64,000 bases of DNA from Prostheceraeus crozeri. Its lineage: Eukaryota > Platyhelminthes > Polycladida > Euryleptidae. Shown in pieces: positions 1 through 56,505 of the stretch. The stretch's first letter is position 1. Every line of letters starts with the position of its first letter. The translations under genes were made by a program, and so were the position numbers. The notes below the pieces were generated by a model, which saw nothing but the letters and a program-made list of their open reading frames with translations, was not told the DNA's origin and made no database searches. Location of the stretch: positions 372,001-436,000 of the forward strand of contig CAJQUW010016163.1 of assembly GCA_907163375.1 (NCBI GenBank), read 5' to 3'.

Positions 1-2
1 GT

Positions 3-542
3 GGTGATACAGATAGTTTCTTTTTAGGAATTACCACTCAAAAAGATTTAAATTTTAATGAAGTAGGTAAGTCATTAGAAAAATATTTCGATACATCTAA
101 CTACAATCCCACTCATCCACTCTATTCCATACAGAATAAAGCCAAACTTGGTTGTTTTAAGGATGAAACAGCAGGAAAGGAAATAGATGAAATGATTCTC
201 CTCCGTCCTAAAATGTATTCCATGAAACTAAAAGAATGTGCAGATAGTATTAAGCGTGCTAAAGGTATATCAAAATCCATTGTTCATAAAATGAAACATC
301 GGTCCTATAAGAAGGCCTATAAAAATAAAACTATAACGTTTGTCAATATGACAATCTTAAAATCTCAAGTTCATACTGTGAAAACGTACACGTTCAAGAA
401 ACGAGCACTTTCGGCATGGGAGGATAAGAGGTGTTGGATAGGACATAACACATCTCTTCCACATGGACATCCTGACACAAACATACCTCCACCCAAAAGA
501 ATAAAACTCACGCTACCACATTCAGGAGATGTATTGACATAA
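3..542 (+). CDS. pPolB: Protein-primed family B DNA polymerase, C-terminal 179 residues (partial)
   Basis: The frame is open from base 3 to the stop at 540-542; the gene begins outside the window. The first residues read GDTDSFF, the family B motif C (YxDTDS) that binds the catalytic metals. Next come LLRPKMYS and a KRAKGIS stretch typical of the thumb region of Polinton polymerases, then a tail with KKRALSAWEDKR. In this family the enzyme copies the element from a terminal protein primer and is encoded near one end, which fits its position. The gene is plus strand and convergent with the gene ending at 721. A poly(A) signal AATAAA lies at 700-705. Nothing in the visible part is broken. The upstream exonuclease and palm regions cannot be seen. 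Confidence 0.9.
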   Translation, partial: GDTDSFFLGITTQKDLNFNEVGKSLEKYFDTSNYNPTHPLYSIQNKAKLGCFKDETAGKEIDEMILLRPKMYSMKLKECADSIKRAKGISKSIVHKMKHRSYKKAYKNKTITFVNMTILKSQVHTVKTYTFKKRALSAWEDKRCWIGHNTSLPHGHPDTNIPPPKRIKLTLPHSGDVLT

Positions 543-691
543 TCAACTTTAACTCAGTATTTTGATGTTGCTTTTTGTAGATATACATGGTTGTTTTATG
601 TATCGCATGAGATCGTTTCTTCCTTGTGAATATATGCCTACAGTCAGCCCATTCCCCTATATCTGTGAAAAGACTTTTTCATATACATATT

Positions 692-705
692 TTTATTTCA
701 ATAAA
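692..705. terminator. Overlapping convergent poly(A) signals
   Basis: AATAAA on the plus strand (700-705) follows the polymerase gene. Its mirror AATAAA on the minus strand (697-692) follows the gene ending at 721. The two signals sit back to back within 14 bp, serving convergent genes. Confidence 0.65.
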
Positions 706-720
706 CATATCACAATGACT

Positions 721-2241
721 TCACTTTGTTTTCCGAAACACTAAAGTTACGAGGGATTTAGTATCTTTCACATGGATACACTCTTGTAAACCATTGGTAA
801 TTTTGATAGCAATAGAGGGTATAGTTTGTTTGACGACGGGATGATAGAAAATAGATTCAAACATCTTCTCGACTATTCCATATGAAGCGTCTTTATCATG
901 AATGAAATCACGTAAAATGTATTCTTTTTTCTCGCCAACAGAAATAGGTAAAATCAAATCACTTTGAATGTAAAGGTGTTGTTCATGTTTATCAAGTGTC
1001 ATTGGTGTTTCTATACCAATCGTATGCGCAGCAGCAAACACAGTTTGTAGCATTGAAAAGCCAAAGAGTTTTTTCAAATTTTTACTCAATTGACATTGAA
1101 TGTCATCACCCAGTTTCAGAACAACGCGTTGTTTTTCAATTGAAAACGAAATGTGGTGTGTCTTTACATCATATTTACTTTTCATCACATGCTTCAACTT
1201 CTGTTGTATATAAGGATTTACTACATGAATGAAGCTTTCAACTGTATGATATAGACGCGGCATTATATTGATAGCAACTTTAGATTCTTCATAAGACTGA
1301 TAAATTTTCTTGATGCGATCGCCATAGATGTCCACCCACCATTCATCATTAACTGAATCAGCTTTAGTGTGATATTCATGAGAACCATACACCACACCGC
1401 TTCCAATAATAGGCGTATAATGTCTTACAAAATGACGCAAGGTTGGAGAGAAATAAACTGTAAGTTTGTCATTATATTTCTGAATAACCAACTTATTTTT
1501 GTCCGCCATAATTTTCTCTCCATACTTCTTACCCACAGTCTCATTCCATCGTTTTACTAACTCAATAAGTGATAAAGGTTGAACACCACGCTTTTTCAAA
1601 ATGATGCGTTCTTCGCATTCTACAACATCTTCATCAAATATTTTAAATCTATAATGAAATTTGTTGATTCGAGTTGAATAAACTTTTTTAACATTTGCAG
1701 TAGCAATTGACGTTAGATGTAGTCCATGACCAAAACCAAGATGTGGATAGAATTCACTATCCAACCTCAGCGTAAGACCTTTAGTAAAAGAATGAAAGCG
1801 GAGGAACTGTCTCCCACTCCAATGATAGATAGTAAACTCATAAGCTTTCTGATTTTTATTCTTCATGATGGAAGTATTACCACTGTTGAATGCCTTAATA
1901 ATTTTCTCATTCCCAAATGGCTCATAAGAATCTGATTTTATCTGAATCCATTCATAGTTCCACTTTCCATCTGATGTTAAATTGTATGGGAACTGAAATG
2001 CATTATTCATCGTTATTCCATCATGGGTGCGAGGAGTCAATATCATTTCTTCCAAATCATTCACATTCTGAATATTGCTATCATAGCAAATACTAGAAAC
2101 GCCAACTTCCCATTCACCTTCTAAATGCAGTGGCCGATTTAATTCTACTCGATAGTCTGATGGTTTATTTTTGGGAAATTTATTCATAGAAGCATTACTG
2201 GGCAAGTAGATTAGAAACGAGTCCTTATTTTCACTTTCCAT
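721..2241 (-). CDS. Polinton structural-type protein with N-terminal LPSNAS/WEVGV domain (506 aa)
   Basis: I recognise the N-terminal pattern (LPSNAS, then GEWEVGV about 30 residues later, then a Tyr/Asn-rich strand) as a domain common in Polinton-borne proteins. It is usually thought to be a minor capsid, penton or fibre component; that role is inferred. The rest is beta-rich with no catalytic motif I can name. The adjacent gene (2,281-3,678) is a divergent paralogue with the same opening. The frame has an ATG at 2,271, but I chose 2,241 because it places the conserved FLIYLPSNAS segment a few residues from the start, as in the paralogue, and leaves the ATGCAAA motif (2,275-2,281) 33 nt upstream. 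The stop is followed by a poly(A) signal at 697-692. Confidence 0.75.
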   Translation of the reverse strand: MESENKDSFLIYLPSNASMNKFPKNKPSDYRVELNRPLHLEGEWEVGVSSICYDSNIQNVNDLEEMILTPRTHDGITMNNAFQFPYNLTSDGKWNYEWIQIKSDSYEPFGNEKIIKAFNSGNTSIMKNKNQKAYEFTIYHWSGRQFLRFHSFTKGLTLRLDSEFYPHLGFGHGLHLTSIATANVKKVYSTRINKFHYRFKIFDEDVVECEERIILKKRGVQPLSLIELVKRWNETVGKKYGEKIMADKNKLVIQKYNDKLTVYFSPTLRHFVRHYTPIIGSGVVYGSHEYHTKADSVNDEWWVDIYGDRIKKIYQSYEESKVAINIMPRLYHTVESFIHVVNPYIQQKLKHVMKSKYDVKTHHISFSIEKQRVVLKLGDDIQCQLSKNLKKLFGFSMLQTVFAAAHTIGIETPMTLDKHEQHLYIQSDLILPISVGEKKEYILRDFIHDKDASYGIVEKMFESIFYHPVVKQTIPSIAIKITNGLQECIHVKDTKSLVTLVFRKTK

Positions 2242-2270
2242 ATTATTCACATTGGAAAAATATATTAGCA

Positions 2271-2284
2271 TACTTTTGCATTAA
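2271..2284 (-). promoter_or_regulatory. ATGCAAA promoter-like motif, copy 1
   Basis: Minus strand TTAATGCAAAAGTA. The core (2,281-2,275) lies 33 nt upstream of the ATG at 2,241 and overlaps the stop codon of the preceding gene. Confidence 0.45.
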
Positions 2285-3678
2285 CTCTTCATTCGGAAAT
2301 GGAGTGTAATACTTGTCACAGCATCTTTATGAAAAGGAATCAACGCACCAGCATCATCATAAATGGCAATATCAATTTGTGGGATGTAGTTTGATTTCAG
2401 CTTTGTATAATGCACTTTCTTGAAAGTATGCTCAGATAAAATACTGCAGCTTTTTGGCTGGTATGGTATCATTGCTAGCAATGGAGCTTCAACATCTCCC
2501 ACACGTACATCTTCACCAATATTGGAATATATCTGAAAATAGTTAATACGACGCGATAGCGACATGTCTGCGCTAGCTTTGGTTACAGTACCACTTTTAA
2601 AGATATTTTGATCAAAACCCAAAATGTCCATTAGAGTTTTATCCATAATTAGTTCAATACCTTTTCCATTTATAGTGAGAGACAAAGTACCTTCTTTTTC
2701 AGAAAATGAAATATGTTGCTCATTAATCACTTCATTTAAATAATCTACAACCAATTTAACCGAAGTAATAATGCGAGGCATCAACACTCTTGTTTCATGT
2801 AAGAAGCCACCAAAAGGCTCTACACACTTTCTGTATAAAGATACGGCCCATTCTGTATCAAATTGATTTGACCTTTCACATGGTAAATGTTGCATATCAG
2901 ATTTTCCATGAACAGCTGCAGAACGATGTCGTAAGAACTGATGAAAATCTTTTGAACAAACTAATACTAGATCATCATCATTTAATTTGCTTATTGCAAT
3001 ATGATTAGATGATTTAATATAAGTCAATGTTGCCACTTGTTTGTCATCAACTCGAAGGAGATAATTAAATTTCTTCAATAATGTTTCAGGAGTCATGTTT
3101 GTCTTTCTTGCCTTAATCACAATCTTCTTCACCAACGTCTTCTCATTTCTTGGAATAAGATCTACATAATAAGCTTCCTCTCGATATATTAACTGTTTAT
3201 GACCACTTATGTGGTAATTAACGTTAAAATTATCATAGCTTGTTAAGGCGCTAGCGAGGTAGCCTAAATCATTTCTTAAACTTGGACTTAAACCAACAAT
3301 CCAATCTTTCTCAACTACATGATGTACATAATTATAATCATCATTGTGTGGAGTAAATTGGACAATATGTTTACACGCTTTATTCAAGAAATCATATATA
3401 AACTTTTTACATGATAAGAGATCTTTCTTTGGCCACTGTGGAATGTATACTCGGCACCCCTTTTCACATTGATAAGCAGCTGTACGCCTCATATTAATAG
3501 TCATCACCTCATGATCAAAAGTATAGACACAGTTGCTATAAACAAGTTGAGTGACACCCACTTCCCAATTCCCATTTAGCTGTTGTGCATGATCAATGGG
3601 AGTAGAAAAGAGTGCGGCTCGATTGCTAGTAAATCTCTTTGTAGCCGCATTGCTAAGCAAAATATGATAAAACGACAT
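2281..3678 (-). CDS. Second Polinton structural-type protein with WEVGV domain (465 aa)
   Basis: This is a paralogue of the next gene downstream. It opens with MSFYHILLSNAATKRF and has GNWEVGV about 30 residues further in, the same layout as LPSNAS/GEWEVGV in the neighbour. It shares similar internal strands, including a region with FLRHRSAAVHG in this protein and FVRHYTPIIG in the other. No enzyme motif is visible. A role as minor capsid, penton or fibre-like protein is likely for the family but not shown by sequence alone. The frame is open to 3,699 without a better ATG, so I start at 3,678. The gene is divergent from the plus-strand gene at 3,714, leaving only 35 bp between start codons. 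Its ATGCAAA core is 22 nt upstream. Confidence 0.75.
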   Translation of the reverse strand: MSFYHILLSNAATKRFTSNRAALFSTPIDHAQQLNGNWEVGVTQLVYSNCVYTFDHEVMTINMRRTAAYQCEKGCRVYIPQWPKKDLLSCKKFIYDFLNKACKHIVQFTPHNDDYNYVHHVVEKDWIVGLSPSLRNDLGYLASALTSYDNFNVNYHISGHKQLIYREEAYYVDLIPRNEKTLVKKIVIKARKTNMTPETLLKKFNYLLRVDDKQVATLTYIKSSNHIAISKLNDDDLVLVCSKDFHQFLRHRSAAVHGKSDMQHLPCERSNQFDTEWAVSLYRKCVEPFGGFLHETRVLMPRIITSVKLVVDYLNEVINEQHISFSEKEGTLSLTINGKGIELIMDKTLMDILGFDQNIFKSGTVTKASADMSLSRRINYFQIYSNIGEDVRVGDVEAPLLAMIPYQPKSCSILSEHTFKKVHYTKLKSNYIPQIDIAIYDDAGALIPFHKDAVTSITLHFRMKS

Positions 3679-3696
3679 TTTTATATTGCTAATCTG

Positions 3697-3710
3697 CAAC
3701 TTTGCATAAC
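3697..3710 (-). promoter_or_regulatory. ATGCAAA promoter-like motif, copy 2 (in a 35-bp divergent intergenic gap)
   Basis: Minus strand GTTATGCAAAGTTG. The core (3,707-3,701) is 22 nt before the ATG at 3,678. The same short gap must also start the divergent gene at 3,714. Confidence 0.45.
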
Positions 3711-3713
3711 ATC

Positions 3714-4070
3714 ATGAAGACTTGGATTTTGGACTCTCTACAATATATCAGAGTTGATCGTGATGGAAACGTACATTTCAAAAATTCTCATGGTCATACA
3801 TCAAGAGGAATTACATTAACATGGCGACAATTTGTCAACCTCAATGATATCATGAGGGATTTGGAATATTTTGAAACATTAAGATTCATCTCCTTGGGTG
3901 ATCAAGTTTGGCTTCAACATTACAGAAATGAAATTCAAATCTACCATTCTCATTCCGCAAACTGTTTCTCATTTCGCAAATACAATTGGGAGAAGTATAG
4001 AAGATACATACATCGCTCCATCATGACATTTATTCGTCGTGAGTTCATCGCCCTACTATGCAAATCTTAA
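3714..4070 (+). CDS. PC4-like (ssDNA-binding transcription coactivator-like) protein 1, 118 aa
   Basis: Residues 11-50 follow the PC4/Sub1 pattern: YIRVDRDGNVHF, then RGITLTWRQFVNLNDIM, which parallels the GIxL-x3-QW-x2-L strand-helix unit of PC4. A second similar half follows: VWLQHY, an Ile/Tyr strand, then FSFRKYNWEKY and HRSI. It may therefore carry two PC4-like units. PC4 family proteins bind melted or single-stranded DNA and assist RNA polymerase II initiation. I infer a role in transcription or replication of the element; no search was possible. The start is the ATG at 3,714. The next gene is a clear paralogue and the one after that is TBP-like, which supports a transcription cassette. 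Confidence 0.55.
   Translation: MKTWILDSLQYIRVDRDGNVHFKNSHGHTSRGITLTWRQFVNLNDIMRDLEYFETLRFISLGDQVWLQHYRNEIQIYHSHSANCFSFRKYNWEKYRRYIHRSIMTFIRREFIALLCKS
4055..4068 (+). promoter_or_regulatory. ATGCAAA promoter-like motif, plus-strand copy
   Basis: ACTATGCAAATCTT. The core (4,058-4,064) is inside the last codons of the preceding gene and 28 nt before the ATG at 4,093. It is oriented with the plus-strand cassette. Confidence 0.4.
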
Positions 4071-4092
4071 TCAGATATGATTACCACGCACC

Positions 4093-4743
4093 ATGAGTTG
4101 GAAATTAGATTCCCTACAACATATTGAAACGGATCATGATCGAAACGTCTATTTCAAAGATTCAACTGGAAATGTGAGAAGAGAGTTTGTTTTATCTTAT
4201 CGTCATTTTCAATCTCTACATCATATCATGAAGGACTTGAAATACTTCTATATGAAAAGACATTCACGTATTGGAAATCGCATCTGGCTGCGCGTCAACA
4301 ATCGGCGAATTCAACTCTATCATTCCCAACTTCATACTAACTTCACATTTCATCAAGGTAGTTGGGAAAAGTATAAAAGGAAGGTACATCGCTCAATTTA
4401 CTCATTCTTTCATCATGAAGCGCCATCGCTACACCATCGTCAACATTCTCCGTCGCTTCAGACTCTACACCAAAATCGATCTCACAACATTACGCCAACA
4501 GCTTCCAAACAGCAAGTATTACCCGGGCCGTCCTCAAATGTTAGTGGTGAAGATGAACAATTCACGGAATCTTCAACTCTTCCCAAATGGGACTGTACAG
4601 ATTCTCGGCGCCCTTTCTCATTCATCGGCGCAGTCAATGCGCTTAGAGCTACAGAGACTACTACGTCGGATATGGAAGAGGGAGAGGTGTGTGATGTCGA
4701 ATCTGACTGTGGACAATATGGTGATCTCTACTCAATTGAGTGA
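4093..4743 (+). CDS. PC4-like protein 2 with C-terminal extension overlapping the TBP-like gene (216 aa)
   Basis: Residues 1-107 align throughout with the preceding protein: MSWKLDSLQHI against MKTWILDSLQYI, SYRHFQSLHHIMKDL against TWRQFVNLNDIMRDL, and GSWEKYKRKVHRSI against YNWEKYRRYIHRSI. The pair is a tandem duplication. From residue 108 on, the reading frame runs through the TBP-like gene (4,415-4,960) in another frame. The extra 109 residues are rich in Ser, His, Gln and Thr and have no counterpart in protein 1. The extension may be an overprinted tail, or the real C-terminus may be formed otherwise, for example by splicing. The N-terminal half is secure; the tail is doubtful. Confidence 0.55.
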   Translation: MSWKLDSLQHIETDHDRNVYFKDSTGNVRREFVLSYRHFQSLHHIMKDLKYFYMKRHSRIGNRIWLRVNNRRIQLYHSQLHTNFTFHQGSWEKYKRKVHRSIYSFFHHEAPSLHHRQHSPSLQTLHQNRSHNITPTASKQQVLPGPSSNVSGEDEQFTESSTLPKWDCTDSRRPFSFIGAVNALRATETTTSDMEEGEVCDVESDCGQYGDLYSIE

Positions 4744-4960
4744 CAGTCTATCATTTTTGAAGATTCGTACCAGCAGTTACAGTTTGTGTTATGAACCCGA
4801 ACTTTTTCCTGCAGCTCTCATTAGTTGTTGGTTGCCTGTGCATGTGGCAATCTTTCATAATAGTAAAGTGATCATTACTGGACTAAAATCTCATGAACAA
4901 GCAAATATGATCCTAGACTATCTCATTGAGTATGTACGTACCCAGCGGATTGTAAAATAA
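4415..4960 (+). CDS. TATA-binding protein (TBP)-like protein, two-repeat saddle (181 aa)
   Basis: Both TBP repeats are visible. Repeat 1 (about 8-90) has a TIVN opening, KYYPGRP (compare YNPKR in TBP) and LFPNGTVQILGA (compare LIFxSGKxVCTGA). Repeat 2 (about 99-181) has VDNMV (compare IQNMV), CYEPELFPAAL (the TBP signature YEPELFPGL) and AIFHNSKVIITGLKS (compare IFxSGKVVLTGAK). The length is about that of the conserved TBP core. Phe at 56, 131 and 147 sit where TBP uses intercalating phenylalanines; the fourth is Pro40. The frame is open upstream to 4,271, but similarity begins after the ATG at 4,415. I infer an element-encoded initiation factor binding DNA in the nucleus. The stop codon overlaps its poly(A) signal (4,956-4,961). 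The frame is intact and very diverged from host TBP, so a recent host capture is unlikely. Confidence 0.82.
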   Translation: MKRHRYTIVNILRRFRLYTKIDLTTLRQQLPNSKYYPGRPQMLVVKMNNSRNLQLFPNGTVQILGALSHSSAQSMRLELQRLLRRIWKRERCVMSNLTVDNMVISTQLSDSLSFLKIRTSSYSLCYEPELFPAALISCWLPVHVAIFHNSKVIITGLKSHEQANMILDYLIEYVRTQRIVK

Positions 4961-4991
4961 AAAACAATTTTTCCAACATGATGTTTTTATT
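4956..4991. terminator. Convergent poly(A) signals overlapping both stop codons
   Basis: Plus-strand AATAAA (4,956-4,961) contains the TAA of the TBP-like gene (4,958-4,960). Minus-strand AATAAA (4,991-4,986) contains the TAA of the protease gene (4,989-4,987). Coding and 3' end signals share bases, a sign of strong compaction. Confidence 0.65.
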
Positions 4992-5448
4992 TCAAATCAT
5001 GATAGAACTTACAAATCATTTTTTCATTAGAGGATGGATTACATGAAAAGTTTTGAATAACAGATGCAAATCGAGATACATGTAAACGTTTTAAGATGAA
5101 GTACAGTACAAAAGCACCACACGTTGATGAAAGTGGATGTTGTAGTATGCGTTCATTTCGCTGATATTGACGCGTATGTTTTCTCAACCACTGCTGTGTT
5201 GGTATATTTGGAGGTTGAGCAAGAGAGTCAAATAGTTCACCACGTCGGTCTTCTCCAATAAAGATCGCTTTCCAATGCTCACCGCCTAAATTCTGTGAAT
5301 GAGTGTTTAGCACAATAAAGATGGGATAGTGATTTACTGCAGGTGGTAAGGTATCGAGTGAATAGACATTATCGAAAGCTTTCAACGTCGCTTCGTCTGC
5401 ATTACGCTGCACTTTAGTCTTAATATCGTCAGCAGTCAACCAACTCAT
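4987..5448 (-). CDS. PRO: Adenain-like cysteine protease (153 aa)
   Basis: Residues match the adenovirus-type (C5/Ulp1-like) protease layout: GGEHW with His58, LFDSL with Asp74, and LQHPLSSTCGAF with Gln103 and Cys110. The seven-residue Gln-Cys spacing is that of adenain. These would form the catalytic triad plus oxyanion Gln. In Polintons and adenoviruses this enzyme matures capsid proteins during particle assembly. The ATG (5,448) overlaps the stop of the capsid gene as TAATG, so the two are probably translated from one transcript by reinitiation. It is the last gene of the cluster pX-like, capsid, protease, and its stop lies within a poly(A) signal. All key residues are present. Confidence 0.92.
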   Translation of the reverse strand: MSWLTADDIKTKVQRNADEATLKAFDNVYSLDTLPPAVNHYPIFIVLNTHSQNLGGEHWKAIFIGEDRRGELFDSLAQPPNIPTQQWLRKHTRQYQRNERILQHPLSSTCGAFVLYFILKRLHVSRFASVIQNFSCNPSSNEKMICKFYHDLK

Positions 5449-6725
5449 TAACGATTATACTGAAGAATCACGTCACGATACTTTGTAATTTCAATATTTG
5501 AATCGAAGACTGCATAAATTAATACATTGATCGTCTCAGGTAGTGTTCTTTTGAACGTCAAATCCAAACGAATATTATGAGGCACGTTCGCTTGACGATA
5601 GGGTGCACTAATATCGCTGTCAGCAGTCAAATCAAATGCATAAATAGTATATCCACTCTTAAACTCTTTCATAGTCAGTCCGTTGGTATCATCCGTATTG
5701 TAAAAGCCAAAGACATCCATAAAATCAACATAACTGCGCATAAATTGATCCGAAGCAAAATCTGGTTTGTAGGGTGGACCAGGATGACTCACACCATTAA
5801 CACGTAAAGCAATTTCACTTAACTGATTGTGTTTAAAATTGAAAGGATTCTTCTTTATATTACCATTAAATGCATCATTTTCAACCATTGCCACCATGAG
5901 GAGCTTTGGTGCTTCCGATGGAAAGAGGCCATCTTTCATGAAACTCTTTTGATCTTTCGGAATTGTAAAGGTGAGAAGCTTTGTATGCTGAATGGGGTAA
6001 ATGGCATTTTGGCGGTTAAGGCCTTCAGCATGCCCTCTAATGACACTTGGATTCGGTACTACTCGACGAATGTATAGTGCAATATCTTCCACATGAATTC
6101 TAAAATTGTCAACTTTAGCAAATGCATTCAGCGCAAATTCAGGCTTATTCAATGTCAGCTTGAGTCGCATGCTGGTATTACACAGTAAAAACTTTGACTG
6201 TCTAAAGAAGTCTAAATTCAGCGGACCATATAGCTGACATACTCTACTATCTTTAATCATAGCAGATCGCTTTACAAAGCCACTGTTTGTTTCAACATCA
6301 AATTTTCCTGCTTCATCTCTGTACCATCCCATGGCTTCCATATGACTTTTTTGTGCTGCTGGATGAAACTGTGATACATGATTGAAATATGATTTATAGG
6401 GATAATCGCTTTGACCACCTTCCACTTGCTGCTCTCCAATCGTTAGAGAAACATCACGAAGTAATGTAGTCAATGGTAAATTGTTCAGTCCAACTTTATG
6501 TGCATCGTCAATAGCAGTTCCATCTGCTTGCTGAATTCTAAACCTCAAATCAAGCATCGCATAACTCAAATCTATGTAGTCATCACTACCACCAGGAATA
6601 ACAAATTCAATGGGGCCAGCATTCTCAGCTGTTCGAGGATGATAATCTACAATACTTGAACTAAGAATATCTGTCTGTATGGCTTGTTGATCGAACAAAC
6701 AAAAACCGGAAGTTTTACACTCCAT
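5448..6725 (-). CDS. MCP: Major capsid protein, double jelly-roll (Polinton type, 425 aa)
   Basis: I recognise this as the Polinton capsid family often labelled F54H12.2-like in animal genomes. Features seen are an N-terminal strand region with ILSSSIVDYHP and GGSDDYIDL, then NLPLTTLLRDVSLTI with a following YPYKSYF, a capsid-like segment shared with virophage and adintovirus capsids, and beta-rich sequence to the end. In this family the trimer forms the hexagonal capsomer of an icosahedral particle. The length agrees with the short Polinton form. It starts 2 nt after the stop of the basic pX-like gene and overlaps the protease start by 1 nt. The frame is intact, so this copy could still specify a capsid subunit. 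Family assignment is confident; the fold is known from relatives, not shown here. Confidence 0.85.
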   Translation of the reverse strand: MECKTSGFCLFDQQAIQTDILSSSIVDYHPRTAENAGPIEFVIPGGSDDYIDLSYAMLDLRFRIQQADGTAIDDAHKVGLNNLPLTTLLRDVSLTIGEQQVEGGQSDYPYKSYFNHVSQFHPAAQKSHMEAMGWYRDEAGKFDVETNSGFVKRSAMIKDSRVCQLYGPLNLDFFRQSKFLLCNTSMRLKLTLNKPEFALNAFAKVDNFRIHVEDIALYIRRVVPNPSVIRGHAEGLNRQNAIYPIQHTKLLTFTIPKDQKSFMKDGLFPSEAPKLLMVAMVENDAFNGNIKKNPFNFKHNQLSEIALRVNGVSHPGPPYKPDFASDQFMRSYVDFMDVFGFYNTDDTNGLTMKEFKSGYTIYAFDLTADSDISAPYRQANVPHNIRLDLTFKRTLPETINVLIYAVFDSNIEITKYRDVILQYNR

Positions 6726-6727
6726 GA

Positions 6728-7183
6728 TTAGAAGTTATAGCAGCGTCGTCGTTTAGCGCCTGATGAATGATTAGAGCCTCTGCGACGTTTGCGTGAATGC
6801 CTTTTGACTGAAGATCGCACCTTACCAGCTCCGCGATGTTTCCTCCTTCCTTTATTCATTCGTTTAGGTGATTTCTTTCCTTGAGTAACACCAGCAATGG
6901 TCTGCTTCAATGTTTTTAAACCGCGTTCCTTCCCACGATTCAACAAACTGCTCTTGAAACTTCTACCTCTGGAAAGATCACTAGCAACATCACCAGCAAA
7001 GCCAACGGCATTACTTAAAACATTTCGTTTTAAAGATCTACCGACATTGGATATGAGAGGTGCTACAACAGATTTCAGTGCACCAAGTATGCTACCTCCA
7101 CGTTGGCGGCGAGCACCGATGTAAATTTGTCCTCCGCCACTTACATAGGAGGGTCGTGAATAAAATGAGGCAGTTGGATTCAT
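6728..7183 (-). CDS. Small basic pX/pVI-like core or membrane-active protein (151 aa)
   Basis: The N-terminal half is Gly-rich with GGSILGALKSVVAPLI and GRSLKRNVLSNAVG, an amphipathic helix pattern. A middle SFKSSLLNRGKERGLKTLK and a strongly Arg/Lys-rich tail ending in KRRR follow. This order is common to a Polinton/adintovirus gene compared with adenovirus pX or pVI, which bind genome DNA or disrupt membranes. It is first in the cluster pX-like, capsid, protease. The ATGCAAA core (7,221-7,215) is 31 nt before its ATG, and the stop is 2 nt from the capsid ATG. Tail composition suggests DNA binding. No cysteine or catalytic motif is present. Confidence 0.72.
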   Translation of the reverse strand: MNPTASFYSRPSYVSGGGQIYIGARRQRGGSILGALKSVVAPLISNVGRSLKRNVLSNAVGFAGDVASDLSRGRSFKSSLLNRGKERGLKTLKQTIAGVTQGKKSPKRMNKGRRKHRGAGKVRSSVKRHSRKRRRGSNHSSGAKRRRCYNF

Positions 7184-7210
7184 AGCTCAAACCCTAAACA
7201 TTGTTAGTTA

Positions 7211-7224
7211 CAACTTTGCATGAA
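7211..7224 (-). promoter_or_regulatory. ATGCAAA promoter-like motif, upstream of pX-like/capsid/protease cluster
   Basis: Minus strand TTCATGCAAAGTTG, directly after the integrase stop and 31 nt upstream of the ATG at 7,183. It would serve the whole three-gene cluster. Confidence 0.5.
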
Positions 7225-8445
7225 TCACTGTCGATCACTTAGATGAAAGATGTCGGCACGACGCATCCAAGAGTTCATACTTGAAGGATAACCAGCCCAT
7301 TTAACAAGACACCATTCTTCACCTTGCCGTTTTTTACATCGAATGATTTTCTCTACCAAATATGTTTCACTTTCAGTGACTACCTCAATCTCATCGCGGT
7401 AAAAGCTACCCTCAATTTCTTCATTATCGTAATCTTTCAACTTGTAGGTGGTCGGAGAGTCTTTTTGATTAATCCTTGATACTGTAAATACCTCCTCTGT
7501 CCAATTCGGAAGGTACCCTTTAGCAAAAACACTTTTCACTTTTGAGATACGAACTTTATCGCCAATTTTCACATCACTTTTCACATGAGTGCGTTTACGT
7601 TGGAATGATTCGCGCACTTTATCTACATTGTCAGCATTTACATCTACTGGTCTGAGTCCAATAGAACGATGGATAGAGTGATTGTAGGCATGGAGTATAT
7701 CTTGTAGAACCTTTGTCCAATTTTGTGTCAAGTTGGCAGTAAAATGTCGCCACAAGCGATTTTTTAATGTGCGATTAAAACGTTCAACGAGTGCAGCTTT
7801 ATAAGCGCTCTTTACACTAAACAACTCAATGTCATGCCTCTCAAATAATCTTGTCACATGCTGATTTTCAAACTCTTTTCCTTGATCACTCTGAATTCTT
7901 TTTGGAATGCGACCTTCTCGAAAAATTGTTTGGAATGCTTTTGCTACTCCTTTCCCTTCTTTAGTTTTTAAAGGTTGAGCCCACGCATAACGCGAGAAAA
8001 TATCAATGACGGTTAAAATAAAATTATTGCCCGAGTTATGTTTTGAAATGGAGGCAACATCGCACAAATCTGCTTGCCACTGTTCATCGATGTCATGAAC
8101 AATATAATGGCGGGTGCGGTACTTCTTTTTCGCTTGTTTGTGGAGTGTATAGGTAGCCTGACCCTTTAACCATCGTTTCACTTGTGATTGTGGAAGACCA
8201 CTCGCTTTTGATAATTTCTTGATAGATGCAAATCCTGCCGGATGTTTTACATCATAATAGATTGACTTCAAACGTTCAGTCGATGACGGCTGACTCTTTT
8301 TCCTCCTTCTCATCTTTTTTCTTTCTTGCCTTTCTACATTTACAACAACTGCAGCATTTAGCTTTAGCGGTTTTGCGATCGTGTTCACATTGCTTAGGGG
8401 TTTCATTATGAGAGCTGGCGCAGCAAGTGCAAGTGACAACGACAT
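7225..8445 (-). CDS. INT: Retrovirus-type integrase with C-terminal chromodomain (Polinton integrase)
   Basis: The DDE core is visible: WQADLCDV (Asp126), IQSDQGKEFEN (Asp187) and ALVERFNRTLKNRL (Glu221), with 33 residues between the last two, as in retroviral integrases. The C-terminus (about 360-402) has a chromodomain pattern, VEKIIRCKKRQG then WCLVKWAGYPSSMNSW, which may steer insertion to marked chromatin. The enzyme joins element ends to host DNA. The first 44 residues overlap a Cys-rich frame (8,276-8,491) and look non-homologous. Initiation at the ATG at 8,313 would give a 362-residue protein starting MRRRKKSQPSSTERLK and may be the true start. No HHCC zinc finger is in frame. Confidence 0.93.
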   Translation of the reverse strand: MSLSLALAAPALIMKPLSNVNTIAKPLKLNAAVVVNVERQERKKMRRRKKSQPSSTERLKSIYYDVKHPAGFASIKKLSKASGLPQSQVKRWLKGQATYTLHKQAKKKYRTRHYIVHDIDEQWQADLCDVASISKHNSGNNFILTVIDIFSRYAWAQPLKTKEGKGVAKAFQTIFREGRIPKRIQSDQGKEFENQHVTRLFERHDIELFSVKSAYKAALVERFNRTLKNRLWRHFTANLTQNWTKVLQDILHAYNHSIHRSIGLRPVDVNADNVDKVRESFQRKRTHVKSDVKIGDKVRISKVKSVFAKGYLPNWTEEVFTVSRINQKDSPTTYKLKDYDNEEIEGSFYRDEIEVVTESETYLVEKIIRCKKRQGEEWCLVKWAGYPSSMNSWMRRADIFHLSDRQ

Positions 8446-8491
8446 TCACCTCTGGCGGCTCATTACATGGCAAGCAACACATCTGCTTCAT
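8276..8491 (-). CDS. Small Cys-rich, Lys-rich protein overlapping the integrase start (71 aa)
   Basis: The first half has eleven or so cysteines in CC, CxC and CxxC groups (CCLPC, CTCC, CSCCKC) plus two His, suggesting metal binding. The tail is alternating Lys and Glu. Its ATG is 1 nt after the stop of the 230-residue gene, continuing the cluster from the ATPase. It overlaps the integrase N-terminus in another frame. It could be an independent small zinc protein, or a zinc-binding N-domain of the integrase joined by +1 shift or splicing; a standard -1 shift would not connect the frames. I do not recognise a family. Confidence 0.5.
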   Translation of the reverse strand: MKQMCCLPCNEPPEVNVVVTCTCCASSHNETPKQCEHDRKTAKAKCCSCCKCRKARKKKDEKEEKESAVID

Positions 8492-8492
8492 A

Positions 8493-9185
8493 TTAATAGT
8501 CTGAGAACATGTATTTCCTAGGAGGAGCTGTTTTACGTTTTCCTTTTACCAGTTTTAGTGGCGATGTAGATCTACGTCGAGTTCTTCCTCTTGTTTGCTT
8601 AGTGAGTGTGGGAGGGGATGTAGCAGGTGACGTCTTAAACCAATTTGTTGGCATTTTCATCGCCTGAAGCATTGGAGTAGTAGCCACTGTTGAATCAAGT
8701 TCTTTCAATGTCTCATTATTTAAAGCAAATTTTGGCACATTATGCTTTTTCAATAGTTTAAGAAAGTATGACCAACCAGGTGGAACATAGCCCTGACGGC
8801 GCTTTCTACGTGTCGCATACTGAATCAAGTCTTCATAACGTGAAGCATCAATCACTTTATTTTCATCTGTAATGATTTCTCCTCTATCATTTACATTGAG
8901 ATGGGGTTCAATACTGTTGAAAAGAGATATGGCATGTGCGCGAGATGCTAAAGGTGTAGCAGTCGATACAGAGTCACGCATCTTATTCTTCAAGTTTTTC
9001 AATTGCTCAACAGTTTCCGATTGTAATAATACAGCACGATGTGGATCTTTGATGTGAACATTTTGCTGATAATCTATTTCTTTCCTATACATTTGATTTG
9101 CAAGAGGTTGCTTTACTTGCTGCATGGCAGTCAATTGTACATATTCATCCTGAGGAATAACAATCATGCGAGAATAAGAACTCAT
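8493..9185 (-). CDS. Conserved Polinton-type protein of unknown function (230 aa)
   Basis: The N-terminus is MIVIPQDEYVQL, followed by predicted helices with a QLKNLKNKMRD segment. Then comes ARSYED-type sequence (SRYEDLIQYATRRKRR) and a PPGWSYFLKLLKKHNVPKFALNN region. The Arg/Ser/Pro/Lys-rich tail is probably disordered and DNA- or RNA-binding. I recall proteins with this layout beside ATPase and integrase genes in other Polintons, but no biochemical role is known to me. The ATG overlaps the ATPase stop as ATGA, and the stop is 1 nt from the Cys-rich gene, so it is the second cistron of a four-gene cluster. A scaffold or packaging role is a guess from position. Confidence 0.65.
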   Translation of the reverse strand: MSSYSRMIVIPQDEYVQLTAMQQVKQPLANQMYRKEIDYQQNVHIKDPHRAVLLQSETVEQLKNLKNKMRDSVSTATPLASRAHAISLFNSIEPHLNVNDRGEIITDENKVIDASRYEDLIQYATRRKRRQGYVPPGWSYFLKLLKKHNVPKFALNNETLKELDSTVATTPMLQAMKMPTNWFKTSPATSPPTLTKQTRGRTRRRSTSPLKLVKGKRKTAPPRKYMFSDY

Positions 9186-9799
9186 AGTTTGTAGATAATC
9201 ATGGGAGTTTTCAAAATATCACTTCGAAATCTAAATTCTTCCGGACACTCTTGCGTAAAGTCAATGAATAAGTAACCGTATGGTTTTTCAGTAGCTGCTT
9301 GAAAAATTTCAATTAAGGCTTTTGATCCTCTGGGTGCAACTTGTCGCGCTAAAATTTCAAATTGACTTTTATCTCGCGGATTCTTGAAAATAGCATAATA
9401 GTGTGTATTCAGGTTTCGTGTACGAGCTTCTTTTCCATCAGGAAACAAATTTTGTGTAATATAGATGATAAAACACCTTTTATGGTGTGCTGCGCGAGTG
9501 AACATATCTGTAACATCTTTTGAATTCTTACTTTCTTTTAATAAATCATCCAATACAACAACATCATTAGACTGAAGTTTATCCACTGGAATAATTCCTT
9601 CATGTCGAATAAAGTTGCGACTTTGCAATTCCTGAAACAGCGACGGTTGATAAATACCATAACACCAAATCACTCGATTGATAGGTTCCTTAAACAACTC
9701 CCTTCTTTTATCCAATAAATTCAGCGTGAAAACAGTTTTACCTGCATGAGATGGACCTGATACAGTCAGAACTTTATCACATTGAAGTCTGAAATCCAT
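9182..9799 (-). CDS. ATP: DNA-packaging ATPase, FtsK/HerA (A32) type (205 aa)
   Basis: Walker A is GPSHAGKT (15-22) and Walker B is VVVLDD (80-85), followed by a sensor-like FIIYITQNLF strand. The C-terminal half has NTHYYAIFKNPRDKSQ, matching the A32-like ATPases of Polintons, adintoviruses and virophages that pump DNA into capsids. The frame is open to 9,847 without an ATG beyond 9,799. Starting at MDFRLQCDKV puts the first strand and Walker A in the usual place and leaves an ATGCAAA core 22 nt upstream. It is the first cistron of ATPase, 230-aa protein, Cys-rich protein and integrase, with an ATGA overlap to the second. All nucleotide-binding residues are intact. Confidence 0.93.
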   Translation of the reverse strand: MDFRLQCDKVLTVSGPSHAGKTVFTLNLLDKRRELFKEPINRVIWCYGIYQPSLFQELQSRNFIRHEGIIPVDKLQSNDVVVLDDLLKESKNSKDVTDMFTRAAHHKRCFIIYITQNLFPDGKEARTRNLNTHYYAIFKNPRDKSQFEILARQVAPRGSKALIEIFQAATEKPYGYLFIDFTQECPEEFRFRSDILKTPMIIYKL

Positions 9800-9816
9800 T
9801 TTATTACTTTGAGACT

Positions 9817-9832
9817 CAACATTTGCATAATT
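9817..9832 (-). promoter_or_regulatory. ATGCAAA promoter-like motif, upstream of ATPase-integrase cluster
   Basis: Minus strand AATTATGCAAATGTTG. The core (9,828-9,822) follows the stop of the 118-aa gene almost directly and ends 22 nt before the ATPase ATG. Confidence 0.5.
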
Positions 9833-10187
9833 AACGCTTAGAGCCAAAGATATTTCCCAATAGGTTGCCCACGGCAGGAGCTATCATTGGAAGTATTGCT
9901 GAAAGGAAACCGCCCTTTTGTGTTAGAGTTTTCCTCTTTCTTTGAAGGGCGACTTTAGGATTGGAGATGAAACGCAATTTCGTAGCATATCGCTTAAGTA
10001 ACTTTCGTTGTTTTGGTGCTAATTTCTTCGTCCTCAACTTCCTCACATGAGAAATAATTTCACAAATGAATTTATCGTTAGCATGTCGTATAGCATTGTA
10101 TCGCTGATTTGCTTTCATTCGTCGGAGAGCTTGAATGGCTGAAGAAAACTTTTGACTTTTACGTTTCGTCATTTTACGTTTCGCCAT
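9831..10187 (-). CDS. Second small basic pVI/pX-like protein with C-terminal hydrophobic helix (118 aa)
   Basis: A Lys/Arg-rich N-terminus and helical middle (ISHVRKLRTKKLAPKQRKLL) are followed by TLTQKGGFLSAILPMIAPAVG, a Gly-Gly then hydrophobic amphipathic helix, and a basic end GSKR. This tail is frequent in Polinton and adintovirus small proteins compared with adenovirus pVI or pX; in adenovirus the corresponding helix disrupts endosomal membranes or condenses DNA. Here that is inference by pattern. The KGG could be a cleavage site of the adenain-like protease, which favours small residues such as Gly-Gly, but this is unproved. The gene has its own ATGCAAA core 39 nt upstream. Confidence 0.72.
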   Translation of the reverse strand: MAKRKMTKRKSQKFSSAIQALRRMKANQRYNAIRHANDKFICEIISHVRKLRTKKLAPKQRKLLKRYATKLRFISNPKVALQRKRKTLTQKGGFLSAILPMIAPAVGNLLGNIFGSKR

Positions 10188-10221
10188 TTTCCGTGTTAGT
10201 CTTTGCTAAAACCTATCTTTA

Positions 10222-10236
10222 CCACATTTGCATAGG
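10222..10236 (-). promoter_or_regulatory. ATGCAAA promoter-like motif, upstream of 118-aa gene
   Basis: Minus strand CCTATGCAAATGTGG. The core (10,233-10,227) is 39 nt before the ATG at 10,187. Confidence 0.4.
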
Positions 10237-10238
10237 TA

Positions 10239-10562
10239 CTAACTATTGCGACATAAGTGACACTCGAAATGAGCAATGTCACAGTGGTTACATTGGCAAA
10301 GTTGAATGCAATTACGTATGAAACAGCGTTGACAAAAAGCATGCTTACATCTCTTGAAGATGCGCTTTTCATTTCCATCCTTTCGCTTACATACATCGCA
10401 ACACATAGTTTCACCGTTACTGATGTCTATAGCAAGTCTTTTTGAAGATATGAATTTGCTAGCCTTTTCTAAATAATAGACGCATGTACAGAAGGAATAT
10501 ACTTCGAGAGTGAGCAGACATAGCTCGAAAACCAGTTGTGCTACAATCAAGTACCACTGCAT
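10239..10562 (-). CDS. Membrane-anchored RING-finger-like protein (107 aa)
   Basis: Residues 3-31 are hydrophobic (LIVAQLVFELCLLTL and on), probably one membrane segment. A RING-type zinc module follows: CDVC, a 13-residue loop, RCKHAFCQRC (Cys-x-His-x2-Cys-x2-Cys), then CQC/CNHC and CHLC. Such proteins usually act as E3 ubiquitin ligases; membrane-bound viral RING proteins often remove host surface proteins, but that role here is only a possibility. The ATG is 2 nt after the stop of the 136-residue gene, so the two form a pair. The frame is open to 10,568, but 10,562 is the first usable ATG. A second, shorter RING-like frame lies at 11,646-11,771. Confidence 0.6.
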   Translation of the reverse strand: MQWYLIVAQLVFELCLLTLEVYSFCTCVYYLEKASKFISSKRLAIDISNGETMCCDVCKRKDGNEKRIFKRCKHAFCQRCFIRNCIQLCQCNHCDIAHFECHLCRNS

Positions 10563-10564
10563 TT

Positions 10565-10975
10565 TCAATTTTTCTTTATGGAAAGTTGAATGTGAATATC
10601 TGAAATCGCTTCAATCACTAGACTGCTACCATGATGGTTAAATGCGTTAAGACGTTCAGCAATTTTTATCATATGTCTTTTAAAAAATTCTTCGGGGTGA
10701 TCTACCACTTCCATTGAATAAGAAGCAAAATGGAAAGAGCGACTTTCCACCTCTTCCTTTCCAAAATGACTAAACTTAATTTTCGCAACTAATCGCGCCA
10801 TGACAATGCTATCAGAGAATGTATTCATTAACTCTAGAAATAGAGTGCTAGCATCATCTACCACTGCTTCGATGTCGGTCTCATCTTTATGAAAATTTAT
10901 CACATAATCTTGAACAGCTCCTTTTAAACTTTGCCTATGAAAACGTAATGTTCCGCAGTCGTTTGAGAAAGACAT
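10565..10975 (-). CDS. Unrecognised protein, possibly related to a region preceding Polinton polymerases (136 aa)
   Basis: Predicted alternating strands and helices; the middle has VVDDASTLFLELMN and MARLVAKIKFSHFG. The end, IAERLNAFNHHGSSLVIEAISDI, resembles the F-x4-GSGW-x4-I-x2-L segment I recall at the front of many Polinton polymerase proteins. If so, this is a stand-alone copy of that domain; function unknown. It is the first cistron of a pair with the RING gene, and a variant motif ATGCAAT lies 24 nt before its ATG. No membrane segment or catalytic motif is seen. It could equally be an unrelated accessory protein. Confidence 0.5.
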   Translation of the reverse strand: MSFSNDCGTLRFHRQSLKGAVQDYVINFHKDETDIEAVVDDASTLFLELMNTFSDSIVMARLVAKIKFSHFGKEEVESRSFHFASYSMEVVDHPEEFFKRHMIKIAERLNAFNHHGSSLVIEAISDIHIQLSIKKN

Positions 10976-10999
10976 GATCGCCCTTTAACTAACCCATCC

Positions 11000-11006
11000 A
11001 TTGCAT
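11000..11006 (-). promoter_or_regulatory. ATGCAAT, variant of the promoter-like motif
   Basis: Minus strand TTCATGCAATGG context. It is 24 nt before the ATG at 10,975, within the spacing range of the other copies. Confidence 0.3.
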
Positions 11007-11062
11007 GAAAACAACAACTCTTCTCATAGTAACATTTATTGAATAACGGTAACAAGCATGCA

Positions 11063-11593
11063 TTATAAATCAATGGTTTGAAAGAGATAAAATAGATACA
11101 GCTGATAACTATCATACAGCGAGCAATGATAACCATACAGGACTTTGGCAGTGTTGAGGTAAGGAGGAAAGAAGCATTGGTTATGAACGTAGCTACTACA
11201 ACGAACAGACAAAATAGGAACACACAAATCCTTAAAACGTTTCGTGACTTCATGATAATGTTGATTCACTCTACTATCCCAAGGCGGGAGCAAAATATCA
11301 TCAATGATTAGATTGGGAAATACTTTCCTCTCCTTACCAGGATTATTACAAAAGATGCGTATAACATTGAAAGCAGCTAACCATCGTTTAAAGTCAATAA
11401 GAAGAGCACTCTCACAAGAAAAGCCATAGTCTTGCAAATATTTCAGATTAAGTCCATGAATGTGTTTTCTCGCCCATTGATCAACATTGGGATCACAGTT
11501 GGCATGTTGATGATAGACACTAACAATCTGATATGTCCAATTGTTCATAGCAATAGCACTGAGCTCCTGTACAGGTTCACCCTCACAATCCAT
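11063..11593 (-). CDS. DEDD-type exonuclease-like protein of Polintons (176 aa or longer)
   Basis: The N-terminus MDCEGEPVQELSAI carries the Asp-x-Glu of motif I. Conserved WARKHIHGLN and a later YHCSLYDSYQLYLF follow, placing a final Asp near the end. I recognise this arrangement from Polinton-associated proteins related to DnaQ-like 3'-5' exonucleases; it probably trims or proofreads DNA, though activity is inferred. Codons before the ATG read as a hydrophobic strand (SIIIF), as expected before motif I. A TTTCCGTTTTAG sequence just upstream looks like a splice acceptor, so the true N-terminus may come from an upstream exon. The pattern is otherwise complete. Confidence 0.65.
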   Translation of the reverse strand: MDCEGEPVQELSAIAMNNWTYQIVSVYHQHANCDPNVDQWARKHIHGLNLKYLQDYGFSCESALLIDFKRWLAAFNVIRIFCNNPGKERKVFPNLIIDDILLPPWDSRVNQHYHEVTKRFKDLCVPILSVRCSSYVHNQCFFPPYLNTAKVLYGYHCSLYDSYQLYLFYLFQTIDL

Positions 11594-11645
11594 AAAAATG
11601 ATGATAGAAGCCTAAAACGGAAATTTACACATCTAAGGAAGCGTT

Positions 11646-11771
11646 CTATAACATATTACAAAATGAAGAATTACATCGATGCTTTTCACGACAAAATACA
11701 CAAATGATATGATGGCAACGAAGAAGTAAAATGTATCTAATAAGACCACGTCTACGACACTCAAAGCACAT
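11646..11771 (-). CDS. Very short RING-like Cys/His protein (41 aa)
   Basis: From the ATG at 11,771 the frame reads CFEC, 12 residues, then RCHHIICVFC (Cys-x-His-x2-Cys-x2-Cys) and a last CNSSFC. The spacing is RING-like but the second half is truncated. The frame extends upstream to 11,894, but there it overlaps the end of the 235-residue gene and looks non-homologous. It may be a relic of a duplicated RING gene, or an exon spliced onto something else such as the exonuclease. Expression is uncertain. Confidence 0.35.
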   Translation of the reverse strand: MCFECRRRGLIRYILLLRCHHIICVFCREKHRCNSSFCNML

Positions 11772-11805
11772 AAGCGAATTGTCATAGGGTAGAGTTAGGA
11801 AAGGA

Positions 11806-12581
11806 CTAGTAATTCTCCTTCTTTGATTTGCGTTTTGATGTAGCATTCTTCTCCGACTTGCGCTTCGTACCACTGCTGTTAAGGATTTGATCAATTATGT
11901 CGTCCACGTTGGGTGGTTTCGGAATATATAAAATGGATTCCATATGCATGGAGAGAGAGGCTATTTTATTATCCTTGTGTCGACCATAATATAGCCCATT
12001 CACTTTGAAAAGGATATCCCAAGTACCTTCTCCAAGCTCATCACATCTGATGGGTATTGAATGATCTCCATCCTTCTTATAGTAAGTACACCAATGTGAT
12101 ACCGGTAGGCAAATGTGATTACCATCCCAAATCTTTCTATAGGGAGTATCCTTGTCATCTCTCGCCTTCCACTCTTGAGCAAGAGGAGTAGGAATGTCCA
12201 TATTTAATGTCACGTACTCCTCAATAATATCAAGTTGGTGGCGAATGTACGGACTCACGGGGATCAGTATGTAGTCCCCATACTGATTGTGCATTATCTT
12301 GACATCCGTGGAAGGGAGCATTCCCGTTTGGAGTACTACGCTATGATCATCATAACGCAAGGCTTGTTTAAATTTACGCTGTAGCGGTGTAGGATTATGT
12401 ACCTTGGATGTTTCTTCCACTGGCCTCAGTTGTAGATGATCTGACCGTAGCGAACCTTGTAACGTTTGACCGCCATTTTGTCCTACTAGTGCAGCAGATG
12501 GAGTAGATGCCTGAAAATGAAAAAAGATTGTATTAAGTTTACGTTCAAGGGAGGAGAGGGAGGGAAGTAGCGACTTACCAT
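11806..12581 (-). CDS. Spliced gene with start codon alone in exon 1; 235-aa protein of unknown function
   Basis: Exon 1 coding is only the ATG at 12,581-12,579, followed directly by donor GTAAGT. A 68-bp intron (12,511-12,578) ends TTTTTTCATTTTCAG, and exon 2 (12,510-11,806) continues in frame without a stop. The protein has a Gln/Ser-rich N-terminus, a folded middle with YGDYILIPVSPYI, LPVSHWCTYYKKDGD and GTWDILFKVNGLYYG, and a basic KRKSKK-type tail suitable for nuclear import. I do not recognise a family; the strand pattern could suit an OB-fold ssDNA-binding protein, a weak guess. It has a TATA box about 100 nt upstream. It is the outermost gene, next to the terminal repeat. Confidence 0.7.
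12511..12578 (-). other. 68-bp spliceosomal intron
   Basis: Donor GTAAGT immediately follows ATG (12,578-12,573). The acceptor has a T-rich tract ending in CAG (12,513-12,511). Removing it joins the ATG to an open frame that otherwise lacks a proper start codon. Confidence 0.75.
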
Positions 12582-12681
12582 TTTAGTTGGGTAATAGAAC
12601 AGGGAACTAGAGAGAGAGAAAATGTGCGTCCGTCACTCGTGTGATTCAACGATGGAATGATTCTCACTGTGGAAGGCTCGC

Positions 12682-12729
12682 TATTTATAAAGAAATGCTT
12701 GATTCTCATTGGATGATGATCCTCATTGG
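12682..12729 (-). promoter_or_regulatory. TATA box and two CCAAT boxes
   Basis: On the minus strand, TATAAATA lies at 12,689-12,682, about 100 nt before the ATG at 12,581. CCAAT pentamers lie at 12,712-12,708 and 12,729-12,725. This is an ordinary host-type RNA polymerase II promoter, unlike the ATGCAAA motif of the other genes. Confidence 0.65.
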
Positions 12730-13345
12730 ACAATAACATCAAGCTGATTCCAAATCTGGTCTCTGTTTTCCAATCCGATGCTTCGTTTTGAAGCTAGAGT
12801 CCAAAACGTCCCAAATTCTAACTCTGTCGTTTTTCGCCAATGTCCCAAAATCTTAAATGGCGTCTCACATCTAAACGAAGACAGATAGGAACAAGCCGAT
12901 TGTTTCACTGAATTTGTCTCACTCTTAGCTTTCAAACGAGCTATCGCACGACAAAATCCGTCCACTGGAAGCCAAAATCGAAGCAAGCTGTCCAGAGGGG
13001 GGGGGGACGTCAGCCGAAAATTTTTTCTCTCCGATTTCGCTGGAAACATCCTTCCTAACCCAAAATTTCACGTAGATTCCGAATCTGGACTCCGTTTTCT
13101 CATCCGAACACTCCTTCCACTCGAAACAACCCATTTACAACCCAACATTCAGCAGATTGCACCAAAAACATCACACACTATAGCCTCAACACTAATCCTG
13201 GCGGTCGCCCAAGTCCACCACGACACTCTATCGTTCCAGAGGGGGGGGGGACTCAGACCCGAAGCACCACGGCGGCCGACCACGACACTCTGCCGTTCCA
13301 GAGGGGGGGGGGCGCCGGTCGAGTGTTTGTCATTTGCTTACTACT
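12720..13345. repeat. Probable right terminal repeat region of the Polinton, with three CCAGA-G10 tracts
   Basis: This non-coding block is richer in G+C than its flank. It holds three CCAGAGGGGGGGGGG tracts (G runs at 12,997-13,006, 13,241-13,250 and 13,303-13,312). The last two belong to a direct repeat with CACGACACTCT before them, 62 bp apart. Another direct repeat, GATTCCRAATCTGG followed by YGTTTTC and ATCCGA, starts near 12,735 and again near 13,076. Two frames here (12,723-13,049 and 12,925-13,134) look random. The matching left repeat is outside the window, so the terminal-repeat identity is inferred. Confidence 0.45.
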
Positions 13346-46563: not shown

Positions 46564-46578
46564 TTTTTGAGGACGCGG

Positions 46579-56200: not shown

Positions 56201-56503
56201 TTAACGGCCAGGCTCACTTATTTTGGGCCATTGATACCTAGAATGATAGACGTATATGAGAATTAGAATAATTCACATTTTTTAATTTTGTAAACTTGAT
56301 GAATTTGAGTCATTTTTTGCCGCAACAGGGACAGTCTAAAATTAATTTTCTGACAACATGTAAACAAGCGATAAAGTCGTTTCGATTTACTTCATGATAT
56401 AAAGGCATGTATAACATTGAAAACGCACCCCGTCAATAATGTCATGGATCTTTCTAAATTTAGTCAGCGACATTAGCATTGTCGTGAATGTCATTTATAT
56501 ATA
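53250..56503. other. A+T-rich intergenic DNA, no gene recognised
   Basis: Short chance frames only. A G+C-richer patch near 55,930-56,110 has loosely inverted CCAGGC/AACGA motifs at its edges and might be a small decayed MITE. Confidence 0.5.
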
Positions 56504-56505
56504 TA

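Follow-up and report, generated by a model that had tools for sequence, protein, structure and literature searches.

The window analysed here is the whole 64,000-nt stretch of contig CAJQUW010016163.1 of the polyclad flatworm Prostheceraeus crozeri (GCA_907163375.1, positions 372,001 to 436,000, forward strand). Its left part contains a gene for a homologue of the TATA-binding protein (TBP), the core and highly conserved promoter-recognition protein of eukaryotes. Judged by its neighbouring genes, this TBP gene sits in a Polinton-class element. The gene is located as follows.

4415..4960, plus strand: TBP homologue, 181 amino acids (aa); coding 4415-4957, stop codon 4958-4960

The initial annotation had read this frame as a two-repeat TBP, and this reading was borne out. 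The PF00352 profile matched two stretches of the 181-aa protein with 74.2 bits (cut-off 22.9). A sequence search of the PDB at E<=10 returned 37 distinct chains; the top 35 are TBPs or TBP fusions (E 2.8e-14 to 3.9e-8), and the remaining two are TonB (E 1.6-1.7). The predicted structure is the two-repeat TBP saddle. When the protein was examined for a missing profile or structural match and for a fold other than the saddle, neither was found. The motifs CYEPELFP, LFPNGTVQILGA and IFHNSKVIITG, which the annotation had picked out, are all present in the translation. Structural alignments with solved eukaryotic and archaeal TBPs gave 19-27% identity. Aligned with one solved TBP, the protein has P40 at the place of the first of the four intercalating phenylalanines and F56, F131 and F147 at those of the other three, so that the annotation was also right in reporting three retained phenylalanines and a proline as the fourth. 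The reading frame extends upstream without a stop as far as a TTG at 4271. Among the homologues, several have their start at about the point that corresponds to the ATG at 4415, and some are called longer.

The database homologues of the protein are 60 proteins, 34-81% identical, all with PF00352. Residues were counted in the alignment of 61 rows formed by these proteins and the window protein. The contact positions of yeast TBP were transferred by alignment. The intercalating-phenylalanine columns hold P in 57/58 ungapped rows and F in 61/61, 60/61 and 61/61. In the N-terminal half, P40 (yeast F99) is found in 57/58, Q54 (L114) in 57/61, Q62 (V122) in 61/61 and L64 (T124) in 55/61 rows, and the yeast V71 position is mostly M or H; N69 is kept in 49/49 ungapped rows and F116 in 61/61. 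In the C-terminal half, N101, V103, E129, P132 and F147 are each found in 61/61 rows and F131, T155 and E127 each in 60/61. Yeast N159, V161, F190, P191, F207 and T215 are retained there, the yeast V213 position is I in 43/61, and that of L205 is A in 45/61 and T in 14/61. The stirrup that contacts TFIIB is also retained (E186 60/61, E188 61/61, L189 54/61); position E188 is given as a TFIIB contact in the available text of PMC12529657. By this alignment, DNA- and TFIIB-contact residues are retained family-wide in the C-terminal half, and the N-terminal DNA face is altered. The protein is classified from its residues as a TBP homologue and not as a canonical TATA-binding TBP, because only three of the four phenylalanines are present and because Q54, Q62 and L64 stand in the N-terminal half. 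A small TBP homologue with a nearly fixed, rebuilt N-terminal half is a useful family for learning how TBP reads DNA.

Phylogenetic analysis was performed on 37 rows. The element-type rows were 26 of the 61 alignment rows, the window protein included, and five loci of the genome; seven loci had been offered, and the five stop-free ones were kept (L006 and L024 were dropped). All 31 of the 31 element-type TBPs lie on one side of a long 100/100 branch. The other side holds the host TBP, the host TRF2-like protein, one microsporidian, one archaeal and two viral TBPs. Cellular TBPs thus differ from the element TBP in this branch, in their low identity to it, and in the N-terminal contacts, which are P, Q, Q and L in the element protein. 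The metagenomic homologues would presumably be Polinton TBPs too.

The host genome encodes an ordinary TBP in several exons (G000:C9306) and a TBP-related gene (G000:C3829), which appears TRF2-like by our reading; this combination points to an animal host. The TRF2-like gene is also a diverged TBP relative, and it differs from the element TBP in that it groups with the cellular TBPs on a long branch.

The other genes of the element, and its right end, are listed below.

3..542, plus strand: putative C-terminal part of a B-family DNA polymerase, recognised by its motif (GDTDS), continuing past the left edge of the window into stretch L027
721..2271, minus strand: 516-aa open reading frame (ORF) with in-frame ATGs at 2271 and 2241
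2281..3699, minus strand: 472-aa ORF, ATG at 3678
3714..4070, plus strand: ORF1, a paralogue of ORF2 (44% over 112 aa)
4093..4743, plus strand: ORF2, 216 aa, its tail overlapping the TBP gene in another frame
4987..5448, minus strand: probable Ulp1/adenain-type cysteine protease (Peptidase_C48, E 0.0012, 19.2 bits, below the cut-off of 20.7)
5448..6725, minus strand: probable capsid protein, 425 aa, with 268 relatives
6728..7183, minus strand: 151-aa protein, basic by its sequence
7225..8445, minus strand: retroviral-type integrase with chromodomain (PF00665 9.1e-11 and PF00385 1.3e-6, both above cut-off)
9182..9847, minus strand: P-loop protein (GPSHAGKT), probable packaging ATPase (Pox_A32, E 0.022, below cut-off)
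12844..13312, minus strand: right terminal inverted repeat, with its left partner at L027:318-873

The setting in a Polinton, as initially annotated, is backed by these neighbour genes, by the inverted ends, and by the repetition of the gene neighbourhood in other copies. The polymerase motifs YADIE, DQNNLYG, NSLFG and GDTDS occur in that order and are taken by us to be those of the B family; Pfam, NCBIfam and the PDB gave no polymerase match for the ORF. The protease ORF has further weak matches to C5 (E 0.043) and to the S273R protease (E 0.015). The 425-aa protein is presumed to be the capsid protein, and it gave no Pfam, NCBIfam or convincing PDB match. The best PDB match of the P-loop protein is replication factor C (E 0.11). 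No RNA polymerase subunit was found among the scanned element proteins. The terminal repeats are inverted and lie ~23 kb apart, with 81.7% identity over 377 nt and 94.8% over 96 nt. Because these ends pair L027:318-873 with ~12844-13312, the element is ~23 kb long and the window covers its right part. The right-end homology of another copy extends to ~13345, past 13312, and L027 contains extra copies of part of the terminal repeat. No exact 6-bp target-site duplication was seen at the ends tried for the window copy, whose end positions are not fixed by other copies.

Three observations concern the neighbouring proteins. In the polymerase ORF (L027:7957-9999 and L020:390-3797), an Endonuclease_7-like stretch precedes the polymerase motifs, scoring 28.1 in L027 against the Pfam cut-off of 23.6 and 22.8, slightly below it, in L020. 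The adjoining 516-aa and 472-aa ORFs share a GEWEVGV / GNWEVGV stretch near the start, with no family match. A close relative (87%) of the capsid-like protein, the database protein P0067, is assigned to a metagenome assembly of Pseudomonadota; animal or viral sequence may have been binned there together with bacteria.

Copies of the element were compared in 18 stretches of 10 kb (one of 8 kb) around PF00352 hits, a hand-picked and non-random set, using 18 window proteins. Eight of the 18 stretches are type A, with a TBP 81-97% identical to that of the window. Four are type B (TBP 40-42%, capsid-like protein 52-54%), and the integrase is also present in type B copies. In types A and B together (12/18), the capsid-like, protease and integrase genes flank the TBP gene in the order of the window; in L018 the two large ORFs are placed differently, and ORF1 or ORF2 was undetected in some type B copies. 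The remaining six stretches are type C (L016, L019, L020, L022, L025, L026), whose TBP is 38-51% identical in its best piece. The polymerase end, TBP, ORF2 and three small genes are present in type C, and no capsid, protease or integrase match was found in these 6/18 stretches. Three outer stretches of type C loci (L028-L030) gave no match to any of the 18 window proteins. Type C may be capsid-less, or its capsid, protease and integrase genes may have been replaced.

A search of the genome with the TBP protein gave 11,886 first-look candidates, of which the best 150 are 100% identical over 181 residues and stop-free. An exact 32-mer of the TBP gene occurs 2,413 + 2,297 = 4,710 times in 2.05 Gb, and the reversed-pattern control occurs 0 times. 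Type A copies are therefore very numerous, and a large share of them is very young. An animal nucleus here carries foreign, near-identical TBP genes by the thousand in addition to its own TBP.

Over ~330 nt (window 4415-4743), the tail of ORF2 occupies the first half of the TBP gene in another frame, and across this stretch neither frame is interrupted in the window or in the diverged copy L024. This overlap is possibly dual coding. The N-terminal half of ORF2 may possibly be a PUR/Whirly-type single-strand DNA binder, a weak assignment, and the last part of its tail is conserved in database proteins P0063 and P0064. Within the overlap, comparison of the window with L024 gave nonsynonymous (dN) and synonymous (dS) rates of 0.068 and 0.32 in the TBP frame, and of 0.107 and 0.16 in the ORF2 frame; by these values TBP looks like the stronger constraint. 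This result speaks against the view that the TBP gene is a functionless passenger of the element. That view draws on the stops in the TBP frame of two examined copies, L015 and L024, and on the substitution counts: six near copies together show 24 synonymous and 54 non-synonymous differences from the window TBP gene, and the part of the L024 gene outside the overlap, which holds the stop, shows 13 and 30. These counts suggest little selection in the near copies and the rest of L024, as would be expected of decay after insertion. The passenger view must also face the identical, stop-free best 150 candidates, the TBP contact residues kept across 61 rows down to ~31% identity, and a gene position that is constant in types A and B. 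A functionless gene is accordingly disfavoured and is regarded as highly improbable.

Candidate promoter boxes were found upstream of the TBP gene and of other element genes.

4372..4379, plus strand: TATAAAAG box, 43 nt upstream of the TBP ATG, within ORF2 codons Y-K-R
4057..4064, plus strand: TATGCAAA box upstream of ORF2, ATGCAAA at -35
3701..3708, minus strand: TATGCAAA box upstream of the 472-aa ORF, ATGCAAA at -29 of ATG 3678, between divergent genes
2275..2281, minus strand: ATGCAAA box upstream of the 516-aa ORF, at -40 of the second in-frame ATG (2241) and -10 of the first (2271)
7215..7221, minus strand: ATGCAAA box upstream of the basic 151-aa ORF, at -38
9822..9829, minus strand: TATGCAAA box upstream of the ATPase ATG 9799, ATGCAAA at -29; inside the frame if TTG 9847 is the start
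10227..10234, minus strand: TATGCAAA box upstream of a 118-aa ORF, ATGCAAA at -46

The TATAAAAG box is single-copy in window 1-13312 on both strands. It stands at the TBP gene in 17/20 distinct loci, and TATAAA in 19/20, across all three types; L009 and L016 deviate at one base, and L018 has none. Copies of one element type are not independent, and the three types are more nearly so. Upstream of the other genes, TATAAA is absent within 70 nt in 14 of 15 cases, and the sole hit lies at -7. This absence speaks against the possibility that the element TBP is a general substitute or booster for TBP, binding ordinary TATA and raising the transcription of element genes with no specificity of its own, or that it titrates TFIIB and so lowers host transcription. 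Such a role is also at odds with the four changed N-terminal contact positions, which are nearly fixed over 61 rows, and is considered unlikely.

All k-mers in the 70 nt upstream of 15 element genes were scanned in type A. The top 7-mer was ATGCAAA, in 6/15 upstream regions, a frequency reached by any 7-mer in 0/500 dinucleotide shuffles and 0/2000 random sets of element segments. With the chosen starts, its positions are -29 to -46. On the strand that holds the majority of genes, 5/5 ATGCAAA copies fall in the 50 nt preceding a start, and such positions make up 4.9% of the strand; the opposite strand has three copies, one of them upstream of ORF2. In type B, the top 6-mer was AAGCAA, in 7/12 upstream regions of 90 nt (shuffle P 0.004; 19/2000 random sets), and TAAGCA lies at -34 to -38 of the counterparts of the 472-aa gene, the 516-aa gene and one g118 gene.

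These boxes and the residue pattern suggest a promoter switch. We lean slightly towards the reading that the diverged TBP of this Polinton-class element works as a promoter-switch factor; the parts with direct support are the predicted TBP fold, the element context, the occurrence of the gene in diverged types of the element and the pattern of its residues. Host TBP and RNA polymerase II (Pol II) would transcribe the element TBP gene from the canonical TATAAAAG box. The element TBP would then bind DNA through its ordinary C-terminal half, and its retained YEPEL stirrup would recruit host TFIIB. The altered N-terminal DNA face, with two Gln and a Pro in place of an intercalating Phe, would accept a GC-centred box (TATGCAAA in type A, TAAGCAA in type B), from which host Pol II would next transcribe further element genes. 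The fuller version, a two-stage transcription programme in which a single self-encoded TBP reads a GC-centred TATA-type box (TAWGCAAA), is held more tentatively, at somewhat short of an even chance. For the control over late transcription that the annotation had proposed for the element TBP, the promoter evidence is circumstantial.

Several points weigh against such a switch. The Y-K-R codons of ORF2 also constrain the TATAAAAG stretch and may partly explain its conservation. ATGCAAA is absent within 70 nt upstream of 9/15 genes, including those for the probable capsid, the protease and the integrase. The motif was spotted by eye before the k-mer scan, two of the six box distances depend on the start codon chosen (516-aa ORF and ATPase), and random segment sets matched the type A value in 16/2000 cases for 6-mers and 41/2000 for 8-mers. 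The type B signal is weaker (P 0.14 for 5-mers, 0.082 for 7-mers), with some sites out to -80. Finally, three of the six type A boxes extend as ATGCAAAT, which resembles the POU-factor octamer. ATGCAAA could on this ground be a site for a host POU-domain activator, with the element TBP acting elsewhere, for example in replication or in bending the genome for packaging. The matching type B genes carry TAAGCAA, presumably not identical to the octamer, and the length and distance of the box appear to be those expected of a TATA-type element; a POU site is judged quite improbable.

If the promoter switch holds, part of the element genes would be freed from ordinary TATA reading, with host TFIIB and Pol II still in use, and Polintons would have a route of staged gene expression resembling that of herpesviruses. 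In the two-stage programme, the box would vary between element lineages along with the protein, in an element present at thousands of copies.

Viral TBPs are known from other systems. In the available text of PMC12529657, ORF24 of Kaposi's sarcoma-associated herpesvirus (KSHV) is a gammaherpesvirus TBP mimic for late promoters, with the variant box TATTWAA and a polar DNA face. The element TBP resembles it in the virus-type TBP fold and the polar DNA-face residues, and for the proposed switch ORF24 offers a precedent of a viral TBP that combines such a face with a variant late box. KSHV ORF24 is described there with extra domains, with four Phe at the TBP positions and without the TFIIB glutamates; the element protein, in contrast, retains Glu at the TFIIB positions and has lost one Phe. 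Because this Glu is kept, it is not filed as an ORF24-like herpesvirus late TBP, though it may work alike. TBP genes are also reported, in the accessible portions of the papers, from mirusviruses and large DNA viruses (PMC10132985, PMC11464507, PMC12085832, PMC11410667), whose genomes are much larger than the ~23-kb element here, and TBPs of this type are among the BFVD structural matches of the element TBP. The nearest case to a TBP in a Polinton, as far as the available text of PMC10675990 describes, is that of a green alga: its integrated elements, putatively derived from mirusviruses, sporadically carry TBP genes, and they differ from the present element in having no Polinton genes.

No TBP in a Polinton was described in the available texts of a limited library on Polintons, Mavericks and adintoviruses, and term look-ups in the accessible parts of further Polinton-related papers and of PMC11071296 gave no mention of TBP or TATA. 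A TBP in a Polinton is thus probably newly described here, and the annotation, which knew of no established description, is probably right on this point. As to its second suggestion, a new functional class for these elements, TBPs are known in giant viruses, mirusviruses and herpesviruses, so that other viruses already show this kind of function.

Other elements were observed elsewhere in the window. Beyond the right end of the Polinton-class element, fragmented reverse-transcriptase ORFs at 15724-17943 (PF00078 2e-21 at 16238-17467) are likely a broken non-LTR (long terminal repeat) element. A Ty3/gypsy-type retroelement with reverse transcriptase and integrase lies at 45117-49607; its ORF at 48747-49607 has a SCAN domain match (PF02023 4.2e-8) and is probably the Gag. 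The unit at 56502-58289 has a fragment of a Tc3-type transposase (HTH_Tnp_Tc3_2 2.7e-6, below cut-off) between perfect inverted repeats of 205 nt, which are 1,378 nt apart, and it looks like a young mariner-like element.
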